Of a stretch of DNA of 59,137 nucleotides, positions 4,296 to 45,731 are shown in pieces. Both the position numbers and the translations under genes were made by a program. Source of the DNA: a virus. The notes under the pieces were generated by a model. The model had not been told where the DNA came from. It did not search any database and worked only from the letters and a program-made list of their open reading frames with translations. The stretch is taken from positions 1-59,137 of the IMG/VR virus record IMGVR_UViG_3300030102_005755; one strand, written 5' to 3'. The number at the start of each line of letters is the position of its first letter. The stretch's first letter is position 1.

Positions 4296-4309
4296 TGTAT
4301 TAAATTTTG

Positions 4310-4383
4310 TACGCCCGATAGGATTCGAACCTATGACCCACAGCTTAGAAGGCTGTTGCTCTATCCAACTGAGCTACGAGCGC
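4310..4383 (-). tRNA. tRNA-Arg (anticodon UCT)
   Basis: A 74-nt cloverleaf: acceptor GCGCTCG pairs with CGGGCGT (two G-U pairs), D arm GCTC/GAGC, anticodon stem ACAGC/GCTGT with loop CTTCTAA, T arm ATAGG/CCTAT with loop TTCGAAT, discriminator A. No encoded CCA. It reads AGA codons, which are frequent in the minus-strand late genes here. Lies 4 nt from the next tRNA, in the late operon just ahead of terL. Confidence 0.93.
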
Positions 4384-4387
4384 ATGG

Positions 4388-4461
4388 TTGGGGCGACGGG
4401 ATTTGAACCCGTGACTTCCTGTGTATAAGACAGACGCTCTAACCAACTGAACTACGCCCCA
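4388..4461 (-). tRNA. tRNA-Ile (anticodon UAU)
   Basis: A 74-nt cloverleaf: acceptor TGGGGCG/CGCCCCA, D arm GTTC/GAGC, anticodon stem TCTGT/ACAGG with loop CTTATAC, T arm ACGGG/CCCGT with loop TTCAAAT. The anticodon UAU reads AUA directly. Most bacteria decode AUA with a CAU tRNA modified to lysidine, so this is a less common form. It may help translate AUA-containing late genes. Confidence 0.9.
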
Positions 4462-10808: not shown

Positions 10809-10813
10809 GGCTA

Positions 10814-10844
10814 CAAATATAGCCAGTTATTTTTTAGTACTCAA
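10814..10844 (-). promoter_or_regulatory. Bacteroidetes-type promoter for the left late operon
   Basis: On the minus strand: TTG (10842-10844), 20 nt spacer, then TATATTTG (10814-10821), matching the -33 TTG / -7 TAnnTTTG arrangement. The ATG begins 5 nt after the box, so the transcript should start at or next to the start codon. Confidence 0.7.
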
Positions 10845-11201
10845 GCCCAGATCAAGGCTCTTTTTTTCAGGACACAACATCCCTCGCGCCATAAACAATA
10901 AAGGATTCCCTTTGTGCAAACAAAGAAAAATGCTTTGACTGCTTAAAAAGTTCTGAATCGCTTCAGTGCTGTAAAGGTATAAACAAAAATTTCAAAAGTC
11001 AACCGTCAACAGTTACTTGAATACAAGGACTCCAACAGATTGCAAACCAGCAGGTTAAGAATTTTTGGTGTGAATTTGTCTCTGAAGTCAATCTAGCAAG
11101 ATCACCGCAAAAATGAGGGGAGTTCAATGCACCGTGGGGATTATATGTAGTAGCGGACGCCAGCGTGTACGACCAGAATCGGTTTGGCAGACCCCACCCC
11201 C
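10845..11201. other. gene-free left half of divergent control region
   Basis: AT-rich stretch of about 360 bp between the divergent late and early modules. No ORF with supported coding character was seen. It holds A/T runs (including a T7 run near 10860 next to a weak AGCC/GGCT hairpin). It must carry the promoter for the early plus-strand transcripts or an origin, but no TAnnTTTG box could be placed confidently on the plus strand. Confidence 0.5.
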
Positions 11202-11590
11202 CAACTATCTTCGATAGTTGCGCTGTAACTTTCAGCTTTTTACCTACTGACTTTCAGTCAGTTAGGTATGGATGGCTCCCCCACTGCGTGAGACTGCAGG
11301 GTGTAACGTGCTGTCTGTCAGGGTGGGACAATCCCCAACCTCAATCTCTACTTCAGCACCAACACCCCTTAACGGGGTGACACTGAAACGGCAAACCGAA
11401 GCCCTTCACGTAGCCTAACCTACGGAGATAACTGGTTATCTCTCAGCGTGTTAGGAGACTTCAGCTCCACTACAACTACCAAGGGTAGTGGTAGTGAGAA
11501 GCCGTCAGGGTAGAGGGTTGAGAGAAGAGAGAGAGGAGTCTACGACTCTCTCTCCTCTCAACACTCCTAGGCTCCGAGAGTCGGTCTAGG
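11202..11590 (+). ncRNA. array of strong hairpins ahead of first early gene (structured RNA candidate)
   Basis: A run of inverted repeats with little sequence between them: 11202-11220 (CAACTATC, loop TTC, GATAGTTG); 11241-11268 (12 bp with one bulge, loop TTC); 11352-11387 (TTCAG/CTGAA enclosing CACCCC/GGGGTG); 11415-11454 (CTAAC/GTTAG enclosing GAGATAAC/GTTATCTC); 11468-11496 (CACTAC.ACTACC with one mismatch, loop AAG); 11517-11562 (long GA/TC-rich stem closing on GAGTC-TAC-GACTC); 11566-11590 (CCTAG + CCGA, loop GAG, TCGG + CTAGG). The last stem ends exactly where the common leader begins. It could be a structured 5' untranslated RNA, a free ncRNA, an origin element or a set of protein sites. 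Strand is assigned from the downstream gene. Confidence 0.6.
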
Positions 11591-11601
11591 TCAAACTTCA
11601 A
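11591..11601 (+). promoter_or_regulatory. common early leader motif, copy 1
   Basis: TCAAACTTCAA, 11 nt before ATG 11613, directly abutting the last hairpin of the upstream array. One of five copies that share fixed spacing to the start codon (copies 2-5 at 12329, 12635, 13482, 14657). Likely a translation-initiation or mRNA 5'-end element. Confidence 0.75.
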
Positions 11602-11612
11602 AATCATCTCCG

Positions 11613-12137
11613 ATGAACAACTTCAACTTCTCTGACTGCCGTAAGGCAGTGAACCAAGCCACCTTCCGTCCAACCGCAGAGCGCAAAGCCGCCGCAGCGA
11701 AGCTGCTTCAGGAGGCCTTGGACTTCGTCACTAACCTCGAAGAGGTTAAGGAGACCAAGCCGAAAGCCAAGAAGCGTCGTCGTAAGACGACGAAGCGGAC
11801 ACCTTCACAGAAGGTGGCAGATGCTCAAGACAGGGCGGCTCTCAAGACCAACGAAGTTGGGCCAATCAAGCCCAAGTCGGCGAAGCCGAAAGCGTCGGTC
11901 AAGGCGGCGGCCAAGGCGGCGCAGGCCGTGAGTGAGCACACTGGGGCAGCGGCTAAAGCCGCCAAGAAAGCCGAACTCAAGGCCGAAGCGGTTCAACCAA
12001 AGGTTGAGGACAACCGCCTGACTTCTCTGGAAGAGAAGATTGAGATGCTGACCAAGTTGGTGGCCTTGCAGATGCAGGGTGAGCCTACCCACACGATCGA
12101 TACTATCAGTATCGATGAACTCCCTTTCCAACTCTAA
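11613..12137 (+). CDS. Lys/Ala-rich histone-like early protein
   Basis: 174 aa, first gene of the early module. An N-terminal helical part (residues 1-45) is followed by a KPKAKKRRRKTTKRTPSQK cluster and repeated Ala/Lys segments like those of histone H1 or bacterial HU tails (about residues 50-130), then a coiled-coil-like helix TSLEEKIEMLTKLVALQ and an acidic end ISIDELPFQL. The DELPF ending resembles the SSB C-terminal tip that recruits replication proteins. Probably a DNA- or RNA-binding protein made very early. Start chosen because it is the first ATG after the leader motif; the C-terminal function is inferred. Confidence 0.75.
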   Translation: MNNFNFSDCRKAVNQATFRPTAERKAAAAKLLQEALDFVTNLEEVKETKPKAKKRRRKTTKRTPSQKVADAQDRAALKTNEVGPIKPKSAKPKASVKAAAKAAQAVSEHTGAAAKAAKKAELKAEAVQPKVEDNRLTSLEEKIEMLTKLVALQMQGEPTHTIDTISIDELPFQL

Positions 12138-12147
12138 TTCATCGAAG

Positions 12148-12240
12148 ATGACAATCCTTCTCCAACTCTTCATGCTCTGCGTGTACTCCACGCTCTCCGT
12201 GCTCTGCGTAGCCGCCTTGGTGAACTTGTTCACCGACTGA
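12148..12240 (+). CDS. 30-aa membrane micropeptide
   Basis: ATG 12148-12150 to TGA 12238-12240. Sequence MTILLQLFMLCVYSTLSVLC then VAALVNLFTD: a single predicted transmembrane helix over nearly the whole length. It closes the first cassette, 27 nt before a long hairpin. A second similar micropeptide closes the third cassette (13331-13414). Too short to be sure from coding statistics; the clean hydrophobic profile supports it. Confidence 0.45.
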   Translation: MTILLQLFMLCVYSTLSVLCVAALVNLFTD

Positions 12241-12266
12241 CCGACCGAACTCAACCCCTGTTAGTA

Positions 12267-12315
12267 TCTCTTAGTACACACTCTCTTCATTTATGAAGAG
12301 TGTGTACTTAGAGAG
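12267..12315 (+). other. long hairpin between early cassettes 1 and 2
   Basis: GTACACAC (12274-12281) pairs with GTGTGTAC (12300-12307) and TCTTCAT (12284-12290) with ATGAAGA (12293-12299), extended by TCTC/GAGA outside; a 2-nt bulge. No T-run follows, so it is not a standard terminator. It resembles an RNase III-type processing stem. The common leader begins 13 nt later. Confidence 0.65.
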
Positions 12316-12328
12316 ACAACACTCAATG

Positions 12329-12339
12329 TCAAACTTCAA
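12329..12339 (+). promoter_or_regulatory. common early leader motif, copy 2
   Basis: TCAAACTTCAA, 10 nt before ATG 12350. The flanks CTCAATG before it are shared with copy 4, and TTCAA after it with copy 5. The upstream in-frame ATG in CAATGTCAAAC would also give a protein, but the same ATG in copy 4 is out of frame, so the downstream ATG is preferred. Confidence 0.75.
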
Positions 12340-12349
12340 TTCAACCATC

Positions 12350-12490
12350 ATGCATCCTTCTATGCGCCGTCAGCTCATCGCTGACCTCCTGACCTCTTCG
12401 TTCGACTTCGACCTCCTCACATCTACGGATGAATGGGAGCAGCTCACCTGCGACGAGCAGATGACATTGGCTGACCTCATCAACTGCTAA
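12350..12490 (+). CDS. hypothetical 46-aa acidic early protein
   Basis: Start MHPSMRRQLIADLLTSSFDF placed after the leader; the rest is acidic (TDEWEQLTCDEQMTLADL). Helical, no known family. An alternative in-frame start at 12326 would add eight residues encoded by the leader itself. Sits alone with a 33-aa mini-ORF between a long hairpin and the hammerhead ribozyme. Confidence 0.6.
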   Translation: MHPSMRRQLIADLLTSSFDFDLLTSTDEWEQLTCDEQMTLADLINC

Positions 12491-12501
12491 ACCCAAAAAT
12501 C

Positions 12502-12603
12502 ATGTCAACGAAATTTCGCATAAAAGACGGGAACAGCTACGTCTGGCCCTGTTGGCTCCATGACTCTTACGTCAAGACGCTCAGGTACACTGACGAGTCC
12601 TGA
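12502..12603 (+). CDS. 33-aa mini-ORF ending inside the hammerhead ribozyme
   Basis: ATG 12502-12504, stop TGA 12601-12603. Product MSTKFRIKDGNSYVWPCWLH then DSYVKTLRYTDES. Its last six codons encode the 5' strand of ribozyme stem I, the CTGACGA core and half of stem II, and the stop codon lies in loop II. A ribosome finishing this ORF would unfold the ribozyme. Coding status is uncertain but spacing (11 nt after the previous stop) is normal for this region. Confidence 0.5.
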   Translation: MSTKFRIKDGNSYVWPCWLHDSYVKTLRYTDES

Positions 12604-12636
12604 ATGGACGAAACACCCCCTTGGGGTGTCTGTATC
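12584..12636 (+). ncRNA. type I hammerhead self-cleaving ribozyme
   Basis: All invariant core parts are present in order. Stem I 5' strand GGTACA (12584-12589); CTGACGA core (12590-12596); stem II GTCC/GGAC with loop TGAAT (12597-12609); GAA (12610-12612); A15.1-U16.1 closing stem III, A+CACCCC (12613-12619), loop CTT, GGGGTG+T (12623-12629); cleavage base C17 at 12630; stem I 3' strand TGTATC (12631-12636), which pairs fully with GGTACA (one G-U). Stem I is the open one, hence type I. Cleavage is predicted between 12630 and 12631, leaving a 5'-OH mRNA with 26 nt of leader before ATG 12657. Confidence 0.88.
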
Positions 12637-12645
12637 AAACTTCAA
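12635..12645 (+). promoter_or_regulatory. common early leader motif, copy 3 (behind ribozyme)
   Basis: TCAAACTTCAA, 11 nt before ATG 12657. It begins four nt after the predicted ribozyme cleavage site and its first two bases belong to stem I, so cleavage and release of stem I would free the motif. Confidence 0.75.
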
Positions 12646-12656
12646 TTTTCTTTACG

Positions 12657-13079
12657 ATGGCATCTTTGCAATCACTCTACATGGCCCTGCAAGCAGGCGA
12701 GGGCTTCAGCGTAAACGCTGACCAAAAGACCTTTGCTGGACGTGGCTACGCAGTCGGTGGAACCGAGGTTCCGTCTCTCGTCGTTGAAAACGACAGCCTG
12801 TCCTTCAATCAATTCTCTGCCGCTATGCAGAACATGGCATCGAAGATGCTTGACCCAGACACCCAAGTGCTCGGCGGTTGGGTGGATGCAGGGATGGCCT
12901 TCATCGAGGTTTCCGACGTGGTGCGTAGCAAGTACGTCGCATTGGAACTTGCCGAGTACCGAAACGAAAGGGCCATCTACGACTTCAACACGCAGTCAGA
13001 GGTTCGCAACCCTAGCTTCATCAGCGGCACAGCCACCACCAAGGTCAATGTCTCACGTAAGCAAACACAGGAAGCATGA
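12657..13079 (+). CDS. hypothetical 140-aa early protein
   Basis: Start MASLQSLYMALQAGEGFSVN chosen after the leader motif; the longer frame from 12621 would begin inside the ribozyme. Mixed alpha/beta, neutral to acidic, with FIEVSDVVRSKYVALELAEY and a basic tail TTKVNVSRKQTQEA. No family recognised. Overlaps the next gene by 4 nt (ATGA). Confidence 0.7.
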   Translation: MASLQSLYMALQAGEGFSVNADQKTFAGRGYAVGGTEVPSLVVENDSLSFNQFSAAMQNMASKMLDPDTQVLGGWVDAGMAFIEVSDVVRSKYVALELAEYRNERAIYDFNTQSEVRNPSFISGTATTKVNVSRKQTQEA

Positions 13080-13315
13080 ACATTTGGGAACGTTACCCAT
13101 CCAAGGGAACTCACTACGAGTGGAACCAAGCCAAGGCCAAGTTGCACACCTTCGAGTATTATGTCCACTACGGAAGCGACCGAGACGACTGGAAAGGCCC
13201 ACACAGGGTCAAGGCACTCACGAAAGAGGAGGCCATCCGAAGTGCCCAAAGGTACTTCGCAGACACGGGGTGGACCGTGTGGAACAAGACATTCAAAGTC
13301 GTTGATAATCAGTAA
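13076..13315 (+). CDS. hypothetical 79-aa early protein
   Basis: MNIWERYPSKGTHYEWNQAK then a beta-rich part with FEYYVHYGSDRDDWKGPHR and a helix KEEAIRSAQRYFADT. This strand-helix-strand layout is like small single-domain early phage proteins; function unknown. Coupled to the preceding gene by an ATGA overlap. Confidence 0.65.
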   Translation: MNIWERYPSKGTHYEWNQAKAKLHTFEYYVHYGSDRDDWKGPHRVKALTKEEAIRSAQRYFADTGWTVWNKTFKVVDNQ

Positions 13316-13330
13316 CTTAACACCATTCAC

Positions 13331-13414
13331 ATGAAGAAGAACTTCAACATCGTGTTCGTGACGTTCGTTGCGTACCTGGCTACCTTGGTAGCAATCTACA
13401 TCCTCAACCTCTAG
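13331..13414 (+). CDS. 27-aa membrane micropeptide
   Basis: MKKNFNIVFVTFVAYLATLV then AIYILNL: basic N-terminus and one transmembrane helix. TAG stop at 13412-13414 touches the base of the next long hairpin. Same position in its cassette as the 30-aa peptide at 12148-12240. Small membrane peptides are typical phage takeover or exclusion factors, but this role is inference. Confidence 0.5.
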   Translation: MKKNFNIVFVTFVAYLATLVAIYILNL

Positions 13415-13477
13415 AGAGTATCAGTATATATATCTCTCTGAACGTAGTGAAGAGAGTATATATATACGATACCTCTC
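13414..13477 (+). other. long AT-rich hairpin between early cassettes 3 and 4
   Basis: About 24 bp stem: GAGA..GTATC, GTATATATAT, TCTCT on the 5' side pair with AGAGA, ATATATATAC, GATAC, CTCTC on the 3' side; bulges of 1-2 nt; loop GAACGTAGTGA. No T-run follows. Leader copy 4 begins 4 nt after it. Likely RNA processing or mRNA 5'-end protecting structure. Confidence 0.7.
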
Positions 13478-13481
13478 AATG

Positions 13482-13492
13482 TCAAACTTCAA
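13482..13492 (+). promoter_or_regulatory. common early leader motif, copy 4
   Basis: TCAAACTTCAA, 11 nt before ATG 13504. Shares 18 identical bases with copy 2 (CTCAATG plus the motif). The ATG inside CAATGTC is out of frame with the gene here, which shows the motif is not simply coding. Confidence 0.75.
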
Positions 13493-13503
13493 ACTCCAAA
13501 CCG

Positions 13504-13767
13504 ATGGACAACATCAAAGACATGACGAACGACGAGTTCATCAACCACCTCATGACGGGGTACAGCAAGCACGGAGCACTCGTGCACTTGGTAGTCCTTG
13601 ACTGCCTTCAGCGTGGCCTCGACCACTACATATCACACAAGGATAAAATCCTTGAAGAGCACAACAATCCCCGTGAGGATGGGCGTATCTCACTCATCAA
13701 CATGAAGGCATGGGTTGAGTGCTGTGAAGAAACACAACAACGAATCAACGAAAAGTACAATGGATGA
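13504..13767 (+). CDS. hypothetical 87-aa early protein
   Basis: MDNIKDMTNDEFINHLMTGY start follows the leader. Helical, with HLVVLDCLQRGLDHYISH and a C-terminal EWVECCEE-like Cys pair (VECCEETQQRINEKYNG). No family known. Overlaps the next gene by 8 nt, so cassette 4 is a tightly packed operon. Confidence 0.65.
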   Translation: MDNIKDMTNDEFINHLMTGYSKHGALVHLVVLDCLQRGLDHYISHKDKILEEHNNPREDGRISLINMKAWVECCEETQQRINEKYNG

Positions 13768-13939
13768 CCAAATCAGAAACTACGACACCTGCCACAAGTG
13801 TGGTGGAGTCGGCATCTTCCTCAACTCGGACCACGACGTCTCGGAATGGTACTACGACTACGAATGTGAAGATTGCCAAGCAACGTGGGACGTCACCTTT
13901 GAACTCAAACCCCTTGACCGAAACAACCATGACGACTAA
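13760..13939 (+). CDS. small zinc-ribbon protein (59 aa)
   Basis: MDDQIRNYDTCHKCGGVGIF with CHKCGG (first Cys pair) and YECEDCQATWDVTFEL (second pair) forms a CxxC-CxxC zinc ribbon. Such tiny ribbons often bind nucleic acids or proteins. Start chosen inside the end of the previous gene; the longer frame from 13715 has no leader. Confidence 0.65.
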   Translation: MDDQIRNYDTCHKCGGVGIFLNSDHDVSEWYYDYECEDCQATWDVTFELKPLDRNNHDD

Positions 13940-14153
13940 CTTCCCCACCATCGGCTCTGCCGTGCTGTACCTCAACAGCCTCCACTACGGCGAGTTCCTC
14001 GATCGCCTGAACGTGGTCTCACGCCACGACCCTGAATGGATTCGAAACATCGCTGACATCATGATGGCGTTCGATTGGGAGAACGAGGATGAGAAGAAGC
14101 TGATGTTCAAGTGGTCTCTCAAAGAGAAATATGTAACGGCAGTAAACGCATGA
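13929..14153 (+). CDS. hypothetical 74-aa early protein
   Basis: MTTNFPTIGSAVLYLNSLHY start overlaps the zinc-ribbon gene by 11 nt; the longer frame from 13764 is a Thr/Ser-rich shadow of that gene. Helical with IRNIADIMMAFDWENEDEK. Function unknown. Its TGA overlaps the next ATG. Confidence 0.6.
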   Translation: MTTNFPTIGSAVLYLNSLHYGEFLDRLNVVSRHDPEWIRNIADIMMAFDWENEDEKKLMFKWSLKEKYVTAVNA

Positions 14154-14272
14154 GAGAACTAATCCGAACAACTCAAATCGACAAGGACTGCAAGGTGTGC
14201 AAGGGTGAGGGGTACGTCCCCGCCAAGCCACGCTACGAGATTTGTCCTAAATGCAAAAACAACAAGCAATGA
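14150..14272 (+). CDS. DnaJ-type mini zinc finger (40 aa)
   Basis: MRELIRTTQIDKDCKVCKGE then GYVPAKPRYEICPKCKNNKQ. CKVCKGEGY is the classic CxxCxGxG half of a DnaJ zinc finger, followed by CPKC. ATGA overlaps at both ends tie it to its neighbours. Confidence 0.6.
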   Translation: MRELIRTTQIDKDCKVCKGEGYVPAKPRYEICPKCKNNKQ

Positions 14273-14463
14273 ATATGTACGACAAAGCACTCAAAGCCCT
14301 CGAACGTGCGGGCTTCAGCCCCGACATGGTGGGGGCACCAGACGACCCCTGCATCTACGTCAATGTATGGACCGACGACATGGGAGAAGCACACGAGATG
14401 CGTCTGCACGACACCGAGATTGGTTGGTGGGCGAGCAAGTACGAGAAAGAATTGGTTAATTGA
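14269..14463 (+). CDS. hypothetical 64-aa early protein
   Basis: MNMYDKALKALERAGFSPDM then an acidic beta part (CIYVNVWTDDMGEAHEMRLH) and WWASKYEKELVN. The start codon overlaps the previous stop (ATGA). Last gene before the terminator at 14475; its stop lies within the reverse-complement copy of the leader motif. Confidence 0.6.
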   Translation: MNMYDKALKALERAGFSPDMVGAPDDPCIYVNVWTDDMGEAHEMRLHDTEIGWWASKYEKELVN

Positions 14464-14470
14464 AGTTTGA
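14460..14470 (+). repeat. reverse-complement copy of the leader motif
   Basis: TTGAAGTTTGA is the exact 11-nt reverse complement of TCAAACTTCAA. It overlaps the stop of the preceding gene and comes just before the terminator, so it lies at the 3' end of the cassette 4 mRNA. It could base-pair with the leader of any of the five cassettes. Confidence 0.55.
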
Positions 14471-14474
14471 CCAC

Positions 14475-14520
14475 GAGGGGGTGACTACCTGAAACGTCAG
14501 GCCCTCCCCCTCACTTTTTT
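14475..14520 (+). terminator. intrinsic terminator after early cassette 4
   Basis: GAGGGGG (14475-14481) pairs with CCCCCTC (14506-14512), enclosing a second stem CCTGA/TCAGG with loop AACG; six T follow at 14515-14520. Good rho-independent terminator geometry on the plus strand. Confidence 0.75.
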
Positions 14521-14521
14521 C

Positions 14522-14651
14522 AAGGGAGCGCAGTCGGTGCGTACATCCACGGAGATTGGTTCGGTGTCTCAGTACACTTGCAGACGTGCAAGTCGAACGA
14601 CATACGACAATTTCTACGGGTGGCAGTTGTGTTCGAATCCCAACCTCCCTT
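14522..14651 (+). ncRNA. tRNA-like fold, interrupted or with a large insert
   Basis: Acceptor-like AAGGGAG (14522-14528) pairs with CTCCCTT (14645-14651). A D-arm-like GCGC-AGTCGGT-GCGT and a T-loop-like GTTCGAATC occur in the right order. CATCC and GGGTG could be the anticodon stem, but about 68 nt separate them instead of 7, including a strong ACTTGCA/TGCAAGT hairpin. The T stem has one mismatch and positions 8-9 are missing or fused. It may be an intron-bearing or degenerate tRNA, or a tRNA mimic cut by RNase P/Z. Leader copy 5 begins 5 nt after it. Confidence 0.45.
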
Positions 14652-14656
14652 CTATC

Positions 14657-14667
14657 ACAAACTTCAA
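14657..14667 (+). promoter_or_regulatory. common early leader motif, copy 5
   Basis: ACAAACTTCAA (first base differs from the others), 10 nt before ATG 14678. Shares CAAACTTCAATTCAA with copy 2. Starts 5 nt after the tRNA-like acceptor end. Confidence 0.7.
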
Positions 14668-14677
14668 TTCAATACCT

Positions 14678-15346
14678 ATGAAATACTATGCAGTAATCCA
14701 CGGTGTCTGCGGCCTGTACGAAGGCTACTCCGACACCACTTGTGACTGGTTCCCTACCGAGGAAGCCGCACAGAAACACGTCAAGCAATGCCTCGACACC
14801 TACCGAGAGGACGAGATGTGTGTCAACATTGACCACAGCGGAGACATGATGCACACCTTCGTCACCATGGACCGCGACCCTGACAACTATGCCGCTTGCG
14901 TCCCATCAGACATGGACCACGACGACTACGTTGCAGAGCATGGCGACGACGTAAGTGTCGAAGTGTTCCGAATCGTAGAGGTTGACAAGCCCTACCGCAG
15001 TGACACAACCGAGTCAGTGTGGCTGACATGGGACCAACAGGATTGCAGTGTGGCATGGGACTACTACCCCCTGTGTATGTCACTTGTTGCTCGTGTCTCC
15101 TCCGATGTGTTGGACACCACCAACGATGACTACCCAACGCAATCACTGCATAACCTTGCACAACTCGGTGAGTTCATCTCCGCTGTGTACTACCGCAAGG
15201 AAGCCTTCATCGACATCGACGACTACACCATGCACGCTTTCCGCATCCCCAAGAAGTTGGAGATGAGGTGTAACGAGTGCGGATATGTTGACGACGCAGT
15301 GGCTTCGCACTATGAAGAATGCTCTAAACTCAAGACAGATGCGTGA
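14678..15346 (+). CDS. hypothetical acidic early protein with C-terminal zinc finger
   Basis: 222 aa from the ATG after the leader. Very acidic, Tyr- and Asp-rich (CVNIDHSGDMMHTFVTMDRD), beta-rich body, and a C-terminal CNECGYVDDAVASHYEEC, a C2HC-type zinc finger at about residues 198-215. No known family. The longer frame starting at 14537 runs through the tRNA-like element and is rejected. Confidence 0.7.
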   Translation: MKYYAVIHGVCGLYEGYSDTTCDWFPTEEAAQKHVKQCLDTYREDEMCVNIDHSGDMMHTFVTMDRDPDNYAACVPSDMDHDDYVAEHGDDVSVEVFRIVEVDKPYRSDTTESVWLTWDQQDCSVAWDYYPLCMSLVARVSSDVLDTTNDDYPTQSLHNLAQLGEFISAVYYRKEAFIDIDDYTMHAFRIPKKLEMRCNECGYVDDAVASHYEECSKLKTDA

Positions 15347-43500: not shown

Positions 43501-45731
43501 ACGTAGATGCCGAACCTAGCTCTAGGTTTTCCGTTATCCTCAACTATTTGTGCTGGGCCATTCTGTGAATCTGGATGCTGACCTTGAGCTGCAGTCACCT
43601 CTTCGTTATACCCCTTGTCTCTAAACAGACCGAACTTTACAGTCGCTTTGTTTACAATAAAGAATCCTTTTACGATAGATGGGTCTTGAGAGGCTTCATC
43701 TGTTCTGTTGATAAAGTCTTCCGCATCTTCAGAAGAGTCTGCATCCTCACCAGAGATACCCCCGCCAACCTGTATTGTGGGGAAGCTCATTCTCTTCCCA
43801 GCAGTTGTAATCAGATTTGCAATTCCTGAAGTCTCTTTCGCACTTGATCCGTTGTTGAGACCAAGGTTTATATCGTAAGAAAGCTCTGCCTCTGTTGGGA
43901 ACACAATGTCTTCAGCAAAGGTGCTAAGCGAAGGGTCTTCACCGCCTTCAAGAATCATGGAGAACACCTCTGCAACCTGAGCTTTTGACAGCGGCGCCTT
44001 GGCTGTAAAGGAACACCGTATGGTAAATGCTCTCCCTTGAAGTATCAAAGGGTTTGCTGCACTTGTGCCAAAGTCAACCTGCTCAACATCGCCAATGCCT
44101 GAAGTCTCACTAAGCATGTCAAAGTATCTCCAACGAAACTTTATGACATCTTCGTCTATGTTGACTCCGTTAGAGCATACAGCTGGAACGGCAGTATTGT
44201 CACCAAATTGAGATCTGATAAAGCTGGCTCCGCTTTTTTCAGCGCTTTGCCACCAGTACCCCTTGGGATGACCTGTGAGATCTGACTCATCATCAACTAG
44301 CGCTGGTGATTCAGCATAATCAGGTATAGTTCCTATGCCAGACGCACTGTACCCATCGTTGTCAAAGTCTTCACCCATCTGGGGTGACTGATGATAAGAG
44401 TTTGTCGCGTCGTAGACGTGAAAGTTCTGCTTTGGATTTACAGTGAAGCTAAAAGAGACAAAGGACCCAGCATCTACTGGGCCATCCAAACCGCTGCAAT
44501 CAAGCGTGAATCCAATGTTTTTGTTCTGGGCTCCAGAACCAGAGTACTCAGACTCAGAGGGTGCCACGCTGGGGATCACCTCTATCTCAAACGACTTAAA
44601 GTCTTCGGGCCTCTCTGAAACTATTGGACTGATAGTTGATGACAAATCCACGTTGTCAAATCCATCTACGTAGTTTCCGTAAACAAGCCTGTTGTCTATA
44701 ATAGTTTGAGCCTCAGCTCTTTTTGGCAGGTTGTCAAAAGGCTTTGACTGAGTGTCCTTGTCTATTGCAGAGTTCACAGAATCGTTCAAGAACCTGTACT
44801 CTATCTCCTCACCCTCGTAAGGCAACTCCTTGATGAGAAAGAAAGAACCCTTGTTTCCTCGTCTGGCCAAAAGCTTTACCCTCTCTACCTCACTAGACAT
44901 GTCGTCATTTGGAATGACAAGGTCTATTGCATTGTAGGAGTTGAGCAAAGAGATGTCGCTTTGACCAGAGTACTGCAGGTAACCAGGGGGGACAAAGATC
45001 TTAGAGTAAGATGATATAGCTGACTCAAAGCCATCCTTGTATACGTTCTGATATGCGAATTGGAATCCTTCTATCTCAAGGAACTCGTTCTGATCAAACC
45101 CTGTTTCGTTTTCAAACCCCCCAGCTTCAGAGTCGATAGAGGGCACAATACGATTCACTGGTGTCTTAGGGCACGCCAGTATAAAATCCTCTATCTCATC
45201 GTCGTTGTAGTCACCTACAATAGCTCTAAGGACGTTGAGTTTCTTTGGTTCAGAGTTGTTGTCTGTAAAGAATATATACGGGACGTCAATGTAATCCTTC
45301 TCCGCGACTACGCTTTTTCTTTGAATGTATGTGATGTCAGCCTTTACAAACCCATTGTAGTCAAACTTCAAGATGGGATGGCTAAACACCTTAAGTATGG
45401 CGTTGCCTCCTGCGCTGTTGGGGAGATACCCTGTCGGGTCATAAGCATATACACCGCCGTCTCCGTTGGCTTCGTAGACAAAGAAGTAGGCTATGTCGTA
45501 CTTGTTGCACAGGACCTTTCCAACAACAACCTTCTCTGAATCTCCAAACTCCGTGAACCCCTGATCGAGAGGAACGTTTGACTTCACTGGCTTTATCACG
45601 CCACCGTTTCCACCCTCTCCTTCTGTATTTTCTGATACGTTGATATTAAGGGCGTCCGACATAGAGTCAGCGCCCAGGATTCTAGAGTCAACAGATTTGT
45701 TGAGCTTTCGGGGAAACCTCTTCTCGATCAT
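40596..45731 (-). CDS. tail nozzle (T7 gp12-like) protein, 1,711 aa
   Basis: N-terminus MIEKRFPRKLNKSVDSRILG then SMSDALNINVSENTEGEGGN is the opening of podovirus nozzle proteins. Beta-propeller-like repeats follow; near the C-terminus IGNTVYFASKGARQVYKFNP, GIQVISEVGMKTFFKDLF and VVGGYDPYEDTYILSVYN are the nozzle end motifs. It then carries an unusual Asp/Glu/Thr/Ser low-complexity tail (about residues 1610-1690) and ends DPGDILDIITY. Forms the tail channel with the proteins encoded just upstream. Insertions account for its large size compared with about 800 residues in T7. Confidence 0.75.
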   Translation of the reverse strand: MIEKRFPRKLNKSVDSRILGADSMSDALNINVSENTEGEGGNGGVIKPVKSNVPLDQGFTEFGDSEKVVVGKVLCNKYDIAYFFVYEANGDGGVYAYDPTGYLPNSAGGNAILKVFSHPILKFDYNGFVKADITYIQRKSVVAEKDYIDVPYIFFTDNNSEPKKLNVLRAIVGDYNDDEIEDFILACPKTPVNRIVPSIDSEAGGFENETGFDQNEFLEIEGFQFAYQNVYKDGFESAISSYSKIFVPPGYLQYSGQSDISLLNSYNAIDLVIPNDDMSSEVERVKLLARRGNKGSFFLIKELPYEGEEIEYRFLNDSVNSAIDKDTQSKPFDNLPKRAEAQTIIDNRLVYGNYVDGFDNVDLSSTISPIVSERPEDFKSFEIEVIPSVAPSESEYSGSGAQNKNIGFTLDCSGLDGPVDAGSFVSFSFTVNPKQNFHVYDATNSYHQSPQMGEDFDNDGYSASGIGTIPDYAESPALVDDESDLTGHPKGYWWQSAEKSGASFIRSQFGDNTAVPAVCSNGVNIDEDVIKFRWRYFDMLSETSGIGDVEQVDFGTSAANPLILQGRAFTIRCSFTAKAPLSKAQVAEVFSMILEGGEDPSLSTFAEDIVFPTEAELSYDINLGLNNGSSAKETSGIANLITTAGKRMSFPTIQVGGGISGEDADSSEDAEDFINRTDEASQDPSIVKGFFIVNKATVKFGLFRDKGYNEEVTAAQGQHPDSQNGPAQIVEDNGKPRARFGIYVKEVSLPDEENAILSCMRRPVQGARWWFFAPYNLEEGDTSPLLPGVDFREYSLFPFISPDNGLPQGGLQVNPGFAAALGHNVDNDAAPQDSIGTTFGIQVSMPGTGQIISITEENMFRKVDGSPFFAPWKTVLGGLHYTSEYVDAVTNRGESVVFFKGESPEGKSLYTLMDGAGGPGGGGIDENSVYDTYALHGLLGPNLDDYGVGIGSVGSVGLFGISRSDQDAGDLVFPGLYGPGIDNNIVLGSDPESDAKFPAVQHSGDDFLTDNNDYSIGSPILRQTSLPFIHLGTGSFNTTNPAIGQSFIQAFLRKEHFSEDFAFFSDPNLFETQISNPDGVNNILFLIEPGSGGSQSFKAGANHAFGVVFYDERGRCSEVNPIGSMYVPWFGERDSPQNTGPVESVSITLAGEVPDGATSFRFVYSGNTTMSRFVQYSSGGAFVTPGNADTDSGNIFVSLNHLQGHPISFSKAKGARSVEGAQDVYTYREGDRLRIISHFNTQNNRVFAGSEYEFNVVDQRFLNDGTDNPLYDVEQDGELPHPSKVGPFLVLENNPQATDFTADVIKLGENNPDSTTHAWNKRCVFEVYSPRKSADEESLVYYEIGPVYPITEFEQEKILKGGDVWFKTEAMNFQKVEGGNFVSLISEDEATSNFFPYNIESQVFSTKVSNSDVWGQGKIKLVAPNIQESRKEASITFSDKNNPISKINTITSFNPVKGQFKDLPSEFGDINYLINNDDSIFVIQSSRCSSVPVNRNIITDGGGGESLVAAKSVLGTERYYAGNYGCDDNPESVCDIGNTVYFASKGARQVYKFNPSSGIQVISEVGMKTFFKDLFEKAEADELEGMGEIKVVGGYDPYEDTYILSVYNQPIIIEEVVEEDDTSEEDDTTTVDDDTSGETGGDTTDTGDDTTEEDTSEDDVTDEDAGEDDSSGGGGNTGGDAFPGGFDPDLGGVGGLVLPDDPGDILDIITY

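Follow-up and report, generated by a model that had tools for sequence, protein, structure and literature searches.

A leader shared by early phage mRNAs and its inverted copy in a hairpin suggest an RNA regulon

Why would a virus keep one short leader at a fixed distance before several of its early genes while the RNA structures in front of that leader are exchanged? The question is raised by the virus record IMGVR_UViG_3300030102_005755 (59,137 bases, analysed over its full length and referred to here as the window), which encodes a terminase, a primase/helicase and an exonuclease. A preliminary description of this DNA had placed five leader copies 10 or 11 nucleotides (nt) before an ATG, each behind a differing RNA structure, and had explained them as punctuation, with mixed cutters making the 5' ends of mRNAs. 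All five positions and their spacers were confirmed (Table 1), a predicted structure lies just upstream of every copy, and end-making devices do precede the leaders. What this description missed is a conserved hairpin that carries the complement of the leader and co-varies with it, which points to a regulon based on RNA-RNA pairing rather than to punctuation alone.

The leader word WCAAACTTCAA occurs seven times in the window compared to 0.15 copies expected, and none of the shuffled sequences gave seven. Besides the five leaders, one copy at 45361, inside a late gene on the opposite strand, is regarded as a chance match. The remaining copy, absent from the preliminary description, is inverted (minus strand, 14460-14470) and sits in the 3' end of the open reading frame (ORF) 14251-14463, in a hairpin that overlaps the stop codon of this ORF and, in its predicted fold, exposes the complementary segment in the loop. 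Downstream of this anti-leader hairpin follow a GC-rich hairpin with a U run and then a tRNA-like element. Duplexes calculated between the leaders of the window and their own anti-leader range from -13.5 to -22.4 kcal/mol.

For comparison, relatives were collected from IMG/VR with the 222-amino acid (aa) protein encoded behind leader 5 (23 loci), with an alignment of this protein (41 loci) and with an 18-nt core of the tRNA-like element (33 stretches); a first scan of IMG/VR used ATGTCAAACTTCAA, and among the matches listed only some were taken further. Genome contigs searched with the 222-aa protein yielded no relative, and Blast of window regions against cultured phages found no match, hence no annotated or transcriptome-mapped relative. 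Structural pattern scans returned many chance matches in coding sequence, which were removed by context. Weak words in distant relatives, which an unbiased k-mer search brought up as well, had neither the hairpin nor the spacing pattern.

Among these relatives the leader precedes several genes per genome, with a spacer of 10-12 nt at 105 of 143 distinct sites. About 30 genomes keep the inverted copy, which lies to the same side of the GC-rich hairpin and/or the tRNA-like element and occurs once per genome, at a fixed place, in a hairpin and always antisense to the leaders. As at least eight unrelated kinds of ORF precede it, the inverted copy behaves like an RNA element and not like part of one protein; most of these ORFs end in LVN, LVD or LVS because their stop codon sits in the hairpin.

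Pairing is strongly supported by the finding that leader and anti-leader change together. Five versions of the word were found (CAAACTTCAA, CAAACATCAA, CAAACTTCAC, CACTCAA and TCAAAACAA), and the hairpin is preserved in every version tested. Genomes G001 and G002 carry CAAACATCAA in the leaders and in the inverted copy alike, the hairpin stem of G001 being preserved although one base differs. A structure-based hairpin scan detected GAGTGAAGTTTGACC in three genomes, from which the leader CAAACTTCAC was predicted before any of their leaders had been inspected; these then read GTCAAACTTCACA or a sequence near it. The CACTCAA version comes from G026, where CACTCAAA occurs four times in 18.6 kilobases (kb), three times before an ATG and once inverted in the hairpin TTGGTTTGAGTGACCA, with an additional leader, TCACTCAA, behind a tRNA-like 3' end. 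The k-mer search recovered G033, in which 23.7 kb hold five copies of TCAAAACAA, four before an ATG and one inverted just before a GC-rich hairpin, with the caveat that this inverted copy is not in a strong hairpin and that the word is A-rich. A table of genomes by versions is essentially diagonal, off-version words being isolated (142 observed compared to a mean of 0.33 for permuted words). In a helicase tree both CAAACATCAA genomes fall together and a CAAACTTCAC genome stands next to a CAAACTTCAA genome; therefore, with the distant CACTCAA version counted, at least three coordinated switches would have occurred. Duplexes within a version are the most stable or at most about 2.5 kcal/mol off the most stable one, but good pairing is also calculated between the CAAACTTCAC hairpin and CAAACTTCAA leaders, so that energy alone does not separate these two versions. 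From this co-evolution it is highly probable that the leaders and the anti-leader pair with each other.

Absence of the motif from close relatives had been named beforehand as one refuter of the earlier proposal. The motif is kept in most of them, and in the stretches read from the four relatives without it (G003, G021, G023 and G030) the anti-leader hairpin is missing as well. Two of these, G003 and G021, have a helicase and an exonuclease 74-79% identical to those of the window, and the 222-aa protein of G030 is 64% identical.

Table 1 Features of the early region of the window (ATG positions give the start codon behind each leader; bp, base pairs)
Feature	Coordinates	Strand	Remarks
Leader copy 1 (TCAAACTTCAA)	11591..11601	+	11 nt before ATG 11613, 174-aa ORF; directly 3' of small hairpin CCTAG..CTAGG, about 20-30 nt past the long hairpin near 11509-11570
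Leader copy 2	12329..12339	+	10 nt before ATG 12350, 46-aa ORF; 11 nt past the long hairpin
Leader copy 3	12635..12645	+	11 nt before ATG 12657, 140-aa ORF; 4 nt past the predicted hammerhead cut
Leader copy 4	13482..13492	+	11 nt before ATG 13504, 87-aa ORF; 4 nt past the long hairpin
Leader copy 5 (ACAAACTTCAA)	14657..14667	+	10 nt before ATG 14678, 222-aa ORF; 5 nt past the acceptor stem of the tRNA-like element
Anti-leader hairpin (TTGGTTAATTGAAGTTTGACCA, letters of + strand at 14452-14473)	14453..14473	+	7-bp stem UGGUUAA/UUGACCA, 7-nt loop UUGAAGU
GC-rich hairpin (inner CTGAAACGTCAG hairpin, then CACTTTTTT)	14475..14520	+	terminator-like in this genome
Long GA/CT-rich hairpin, then small hairpin CCTAGGCTCCGAGAGTCGGTCTAGG	11509..11590	+	ends directly before leader 1
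Long hairpin before leader 2	12264..12317	+	candidate RNase III site; arms of 21 nt
Type I hammerhead	12584..12636	+	predicted to cut after C12630; stem I shares two bases with the start of leader 3
Long hairpin before leader 4	13414..13477	+	candidate RNase III site
tRNA-like element	14522..14651	+	acceptor AAGGGAG/CTCCCTT, D-like arm, T arm with TTCGAAT, long third arm

The structures in front of the leaders are likewise seen beyond the window. In relatives, some end-making device lies just upstream of 84% of leaders and of 20.5% of control ORF starts, which comprises hammerheads (22% of leaders, 0% of controls), hairpins of at least 12 bp (48% and 19.5%), tRNA-like 3' ends (5% and 0.2%) and the promoter TAnnTTTG (14% and 1%). 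The earlier idea of mRNA 5' ends made by mixed cutters thus stands as far as the common leader and its interchangeable devices are concerned, but cleavage is not the sole way to such an end, as in some relatives TAnnTTTG stands right before a leader. This is a promoter motif of Bacteroidota (PMC7366714), and its presence in relatives is the only basis for a presumed Bacteroidota host. On the plus strand of the window no TAnnTTTG was found between 10700 and 15000, a motif that does not cover phage-specific promoters. Long hairpins between early cistrons, as in T7-type punctuation, are present, and their loops often read CTGA....TGAAG (e.g., CTGAACGTAGTGAAG; 13438-13455 in the window, and in relatives), possibly with tandem G-A pairs, as though the loop itself were recognised.

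Before leader 3 the end would be made by the hammerhead, whose core in the window (CTGACGA..GAAAC..GTC) has the type I arrangement (CUGANGA ... GAAA, H17 before the cut, stem I open). After the predicted cut the 5' end would read UGUAUCAAACUUCAA. Thirty instances precede leaders in relatives. Over 24 distinct hammerhead sequences both sides have changed in 8 of 16 pairs, in all three stems, and 97.9% of alignment cells are paired compared to 23-55% in slid controls. The window copy scores 23.2 bits, below the Rfam gathering score of 34 (Hammerhead_1); since this model is loose for short stems, the low score weakens the database call and not the covariation. By comparison, then, the hammerhead is real, and its self-cleavage is predicted.

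The tRNA-like element keeps its acceptor, D-like and T arms in relatives while the third arm varies from 0 to about 80 nt, which suggests a processing signal and not an adaptor. Neither ARAGORN nor Rfam called it as a tRNA. Rfam scans at the gathering score and by E-value, covering this element, the GC-rich hairpin and other RNAs, returned only the two ordinary tRNAs above threshold, whose adjoining genes, for Arg (tct) and Ile (tat), lie at 4309-4461 (minus strand) of the window. Further structured stretches were noticed in relatives. One, CATTACCT..GTCAGGTGTGGTGGGG ... AATGACTGACGGCTCGGAAAGACGAGC, recurs between anti-leader and leader (about L141:1740-1870, L142:5760-5895 and L133:5400-5540), with zero Rfam matches. 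Another, TTAGTCGGCGGACGTTAAACGCAT ... GACGTTCAGGCTCCACC, recurs at about L131:4780-4980, L136:3440-3680 and L141:1950-2150, in an intergenic region where at least two extra tRNA-like elements (TAGGCAGAG..CTCTGCCTA and ATGGCAG..CTCTGCTA) are stacked. In the window itself, about 780 nt (10809-11590) between the leftward and rightward gene blocks hold many strong hairpins and no convincing gene, and could be structured RNA or an early promoter region. Pfam gave zero matches over cut-off for the leader-driven genes.

Together these elements would form the following system. Several early mRNAs would share an unstructured leader 10-12 nt upstream of the start codon and would either start with it or be cut just in front of it. 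Their 5' end would be supplied by whichever device precedes the leader: self-cleavage of the hammerhead, a long hairpin (probably cut by RNase III), the tRNA-like element (probably cut by RNase P/Z) or, in relatives, a promoter. The anti-leader hairpin, in the 3' untranslated region (UTR) of a gene belonging to the same part of the genome, would show the leader complement in its loop and, released together with the GC-rich hairpin 3' of it, would pair in trans with every leader. Bacteroidota mRNAs are without Shine-Dalgarno sequences, the ribosomes do not rely on such pairing, and secondary structure close to the start is what initiation depends on (PMC6847099). The duplex would span about -11 to -23, within the ribosome footprint, so that repression of early translation is the most likely effect; perhaps it would expose the mRNA to RNase III as well. 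Because the anti-leader comes from the same region, repression would grow with the amount of hairpin, so that feedback or an early shut-off is built in. This full statement, a phage RNA regulon with trans repression of early translation by the anti-leader, is probable, if distinctly less secure than the pairing itself.

Several points weigh against it. The processed 5' ends, the discrete small RNA and the sign of the regulation are all things that we infer, and repression is preferred to activation solely from the position of the duplex. The U run after the GC-rich hairpin is kept in some relatives, not all, and one locus (L142) lacks that hairpin, which leaves the 3' end of the putative anti-leader RNA ill-defined. 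Seven of the 143 leader-like sites do not lie just before a gene or have a short spacer, and these may be chance. Moreover, G030 has a shared leader (TTCTTAAAC) with no inverted copy, showing that a shared leader by itself needs no anti-leader. On the minus strand of its locus L272 (G030:20001-40000) the leader TTCTTAAACyCTTAAACC stands five times, at 14962, 16683, 17242, 18068 and 19027, directly behind the palindrome TTCTACCCGGGTAGAA; palindrome and leader may represent a DNA operator or else another kind of RNA device.

The same pairing could act with the opposite sign, the anti-leader RNA activating or protecting leader mRNAs by shielding their 5' ends from 5'-end-dependent decay or by recruiting a structured RNA to ribosomes that work without Shine-Dalgarno pairing. 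The co-variation is identical evidence for this case, and the leaders at predicted 5' ends and the tRNA-like element often found 3' of the anti-leader would agree with it. However, a duplex at -11 to -23 normally hinders 30S binding and would be expected to do so here, and the tRNA-like element, with an acceptor stem of its own, resembles a cut site; activation or protection is considered unlikely, but is the main rival. Perhaps the pairing occurs in cis only, the anti-leader in the 3' UTR closing its own mRNA onto the leader (5'-3' closing) or meeting the neighbouring leader around the tRNA-like element, as leader 4 and the anti-leader flank one operon (13482 to 14473) and 12 bp are possible between 14458 and 14669. 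Yet this position suits only one or two of the five leaders, whereas all leaders of a genome share one version; relatives have further hairpins, RNAs or a promoter between the anti-leader and the leader that follows it, and G001 has its anti-leader about 2.3 kb 3' of the 222-aa gene. Pairing restricted to cis is accordingly very improbable.

Alternatively, the word could be the binding site of a phage protein on DNA or single-stranded RNA, with the inverted copy as one more site. A co-evolving protein would likewise change all sites together, and the palindromic element before the shared leader of G030 is what a DNA operator would look like. A plain site is nonetheless improbable, given that a genome has one inverted copy, antisense to the leaders in every case and each time presented in a hairpin whose stem is kept, and that leaders also follow hammerhead cut sites, where such a 5' end exists only in RNA. 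Punctuation in its original form, with the leader as a 5' UTR that enhances translation once mixed cutters have exposed it and with the inverted copy as incidental, would account for the enrichment of end-makers before leaders. It is hardly credible for an inverted copy that is conserved and co-varies in every version, and an enhancer directed at the host needs no phage complement.

On the widest reading, the word would be an exchangeable code of 8-10 nt, written in sense on many mRNAs whose 5' ends come from four kinds of device, and once as the anti-leader hairpin that reads them in trans. The version switches, at least three in number, would then separate the regulons of related phages with little cross-talk, possibly as immunity or incompatibility on co-infection. 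This wider proposal is tentative and somewhat more doubtful than not. If true, the regulon would be the first known case, as far as found, of one phage hairpin RNA predicted to control a set of phage mRNAs via a shared leader; in the literature consulted, which was open-licence work only and is no proof of novelty, there was no account of one anti-leader RNA matched to a leader shared by many phage mRNAs. Phage hammerheads would also gain a concrete job, namely to set free a regulated 5' leader whose distance from the start codon is fixed. Since the versions co-vary, exchanging one 10-nt word at two sites would test the system directly; they may also supply a testable idea on competition between related phages. 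For Bacteroidota-like hosts, in which tools based on Shine-Dalgarno sequences fail, they may yield leader/anti-leader pairs that are orthogonal.

Parts of the proposed system are known from elsewhere. The early mRNA of phage T7 is punctuated by RNase III, and here, too, structured sites between early genes would set mRNA ends; unlike in T7, the end-makers are of several kinds and are combined with a shared leader and an anti-leader RNA. Bacterial small RNAs from 3' UTRs present a conserved seed in a loop and pair with several targets just upstream of the start codon. The anti-leader resembles them in its 3'-UTR origin, loop seed, several targets and the terminator-like hairpin after the seed, but it is virus-encoded, and its targets share an identical 8-10-nt word that switches in concert with the seed. 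For hammerheads between prophage or phage genes, a role in dividing long transcripts into shorter mRNAs has been proposed (Perreault et al. 2011, PMC3088659), and in haloviruses HF1/HF2 one lies 13 nt before a start codon (PMC3088659). Those described here flank phage genes in the same way, but the predicted cut would release a shared leader, hairpins, tRNA-like elements or promoters take their place at the same position, and they fall below the Rfam gathering score. The C4 antisense RNA of phages P1 and P7 pairs through its loops near a ribosome binding site, with pairing that differs between the sister phages (PMC12197685). Like C4, the anti-leader is a phage RNA with complementary segments in a loop that would pair around the ribosome binding site of phage mRNA, its partner lies near a phage start codon and is maintained by co-variation between phages, and the differing pairing of sister phages would prevent cross-regulation, which in C4 is the feature of heteroimmunity. 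While C4 has one target, ant, the complement of this single hairpin is found on four to eight mRNAs that are tagged separately, in the form of a 10-nt leader that hardly varies and keeps its distance from the ATG.

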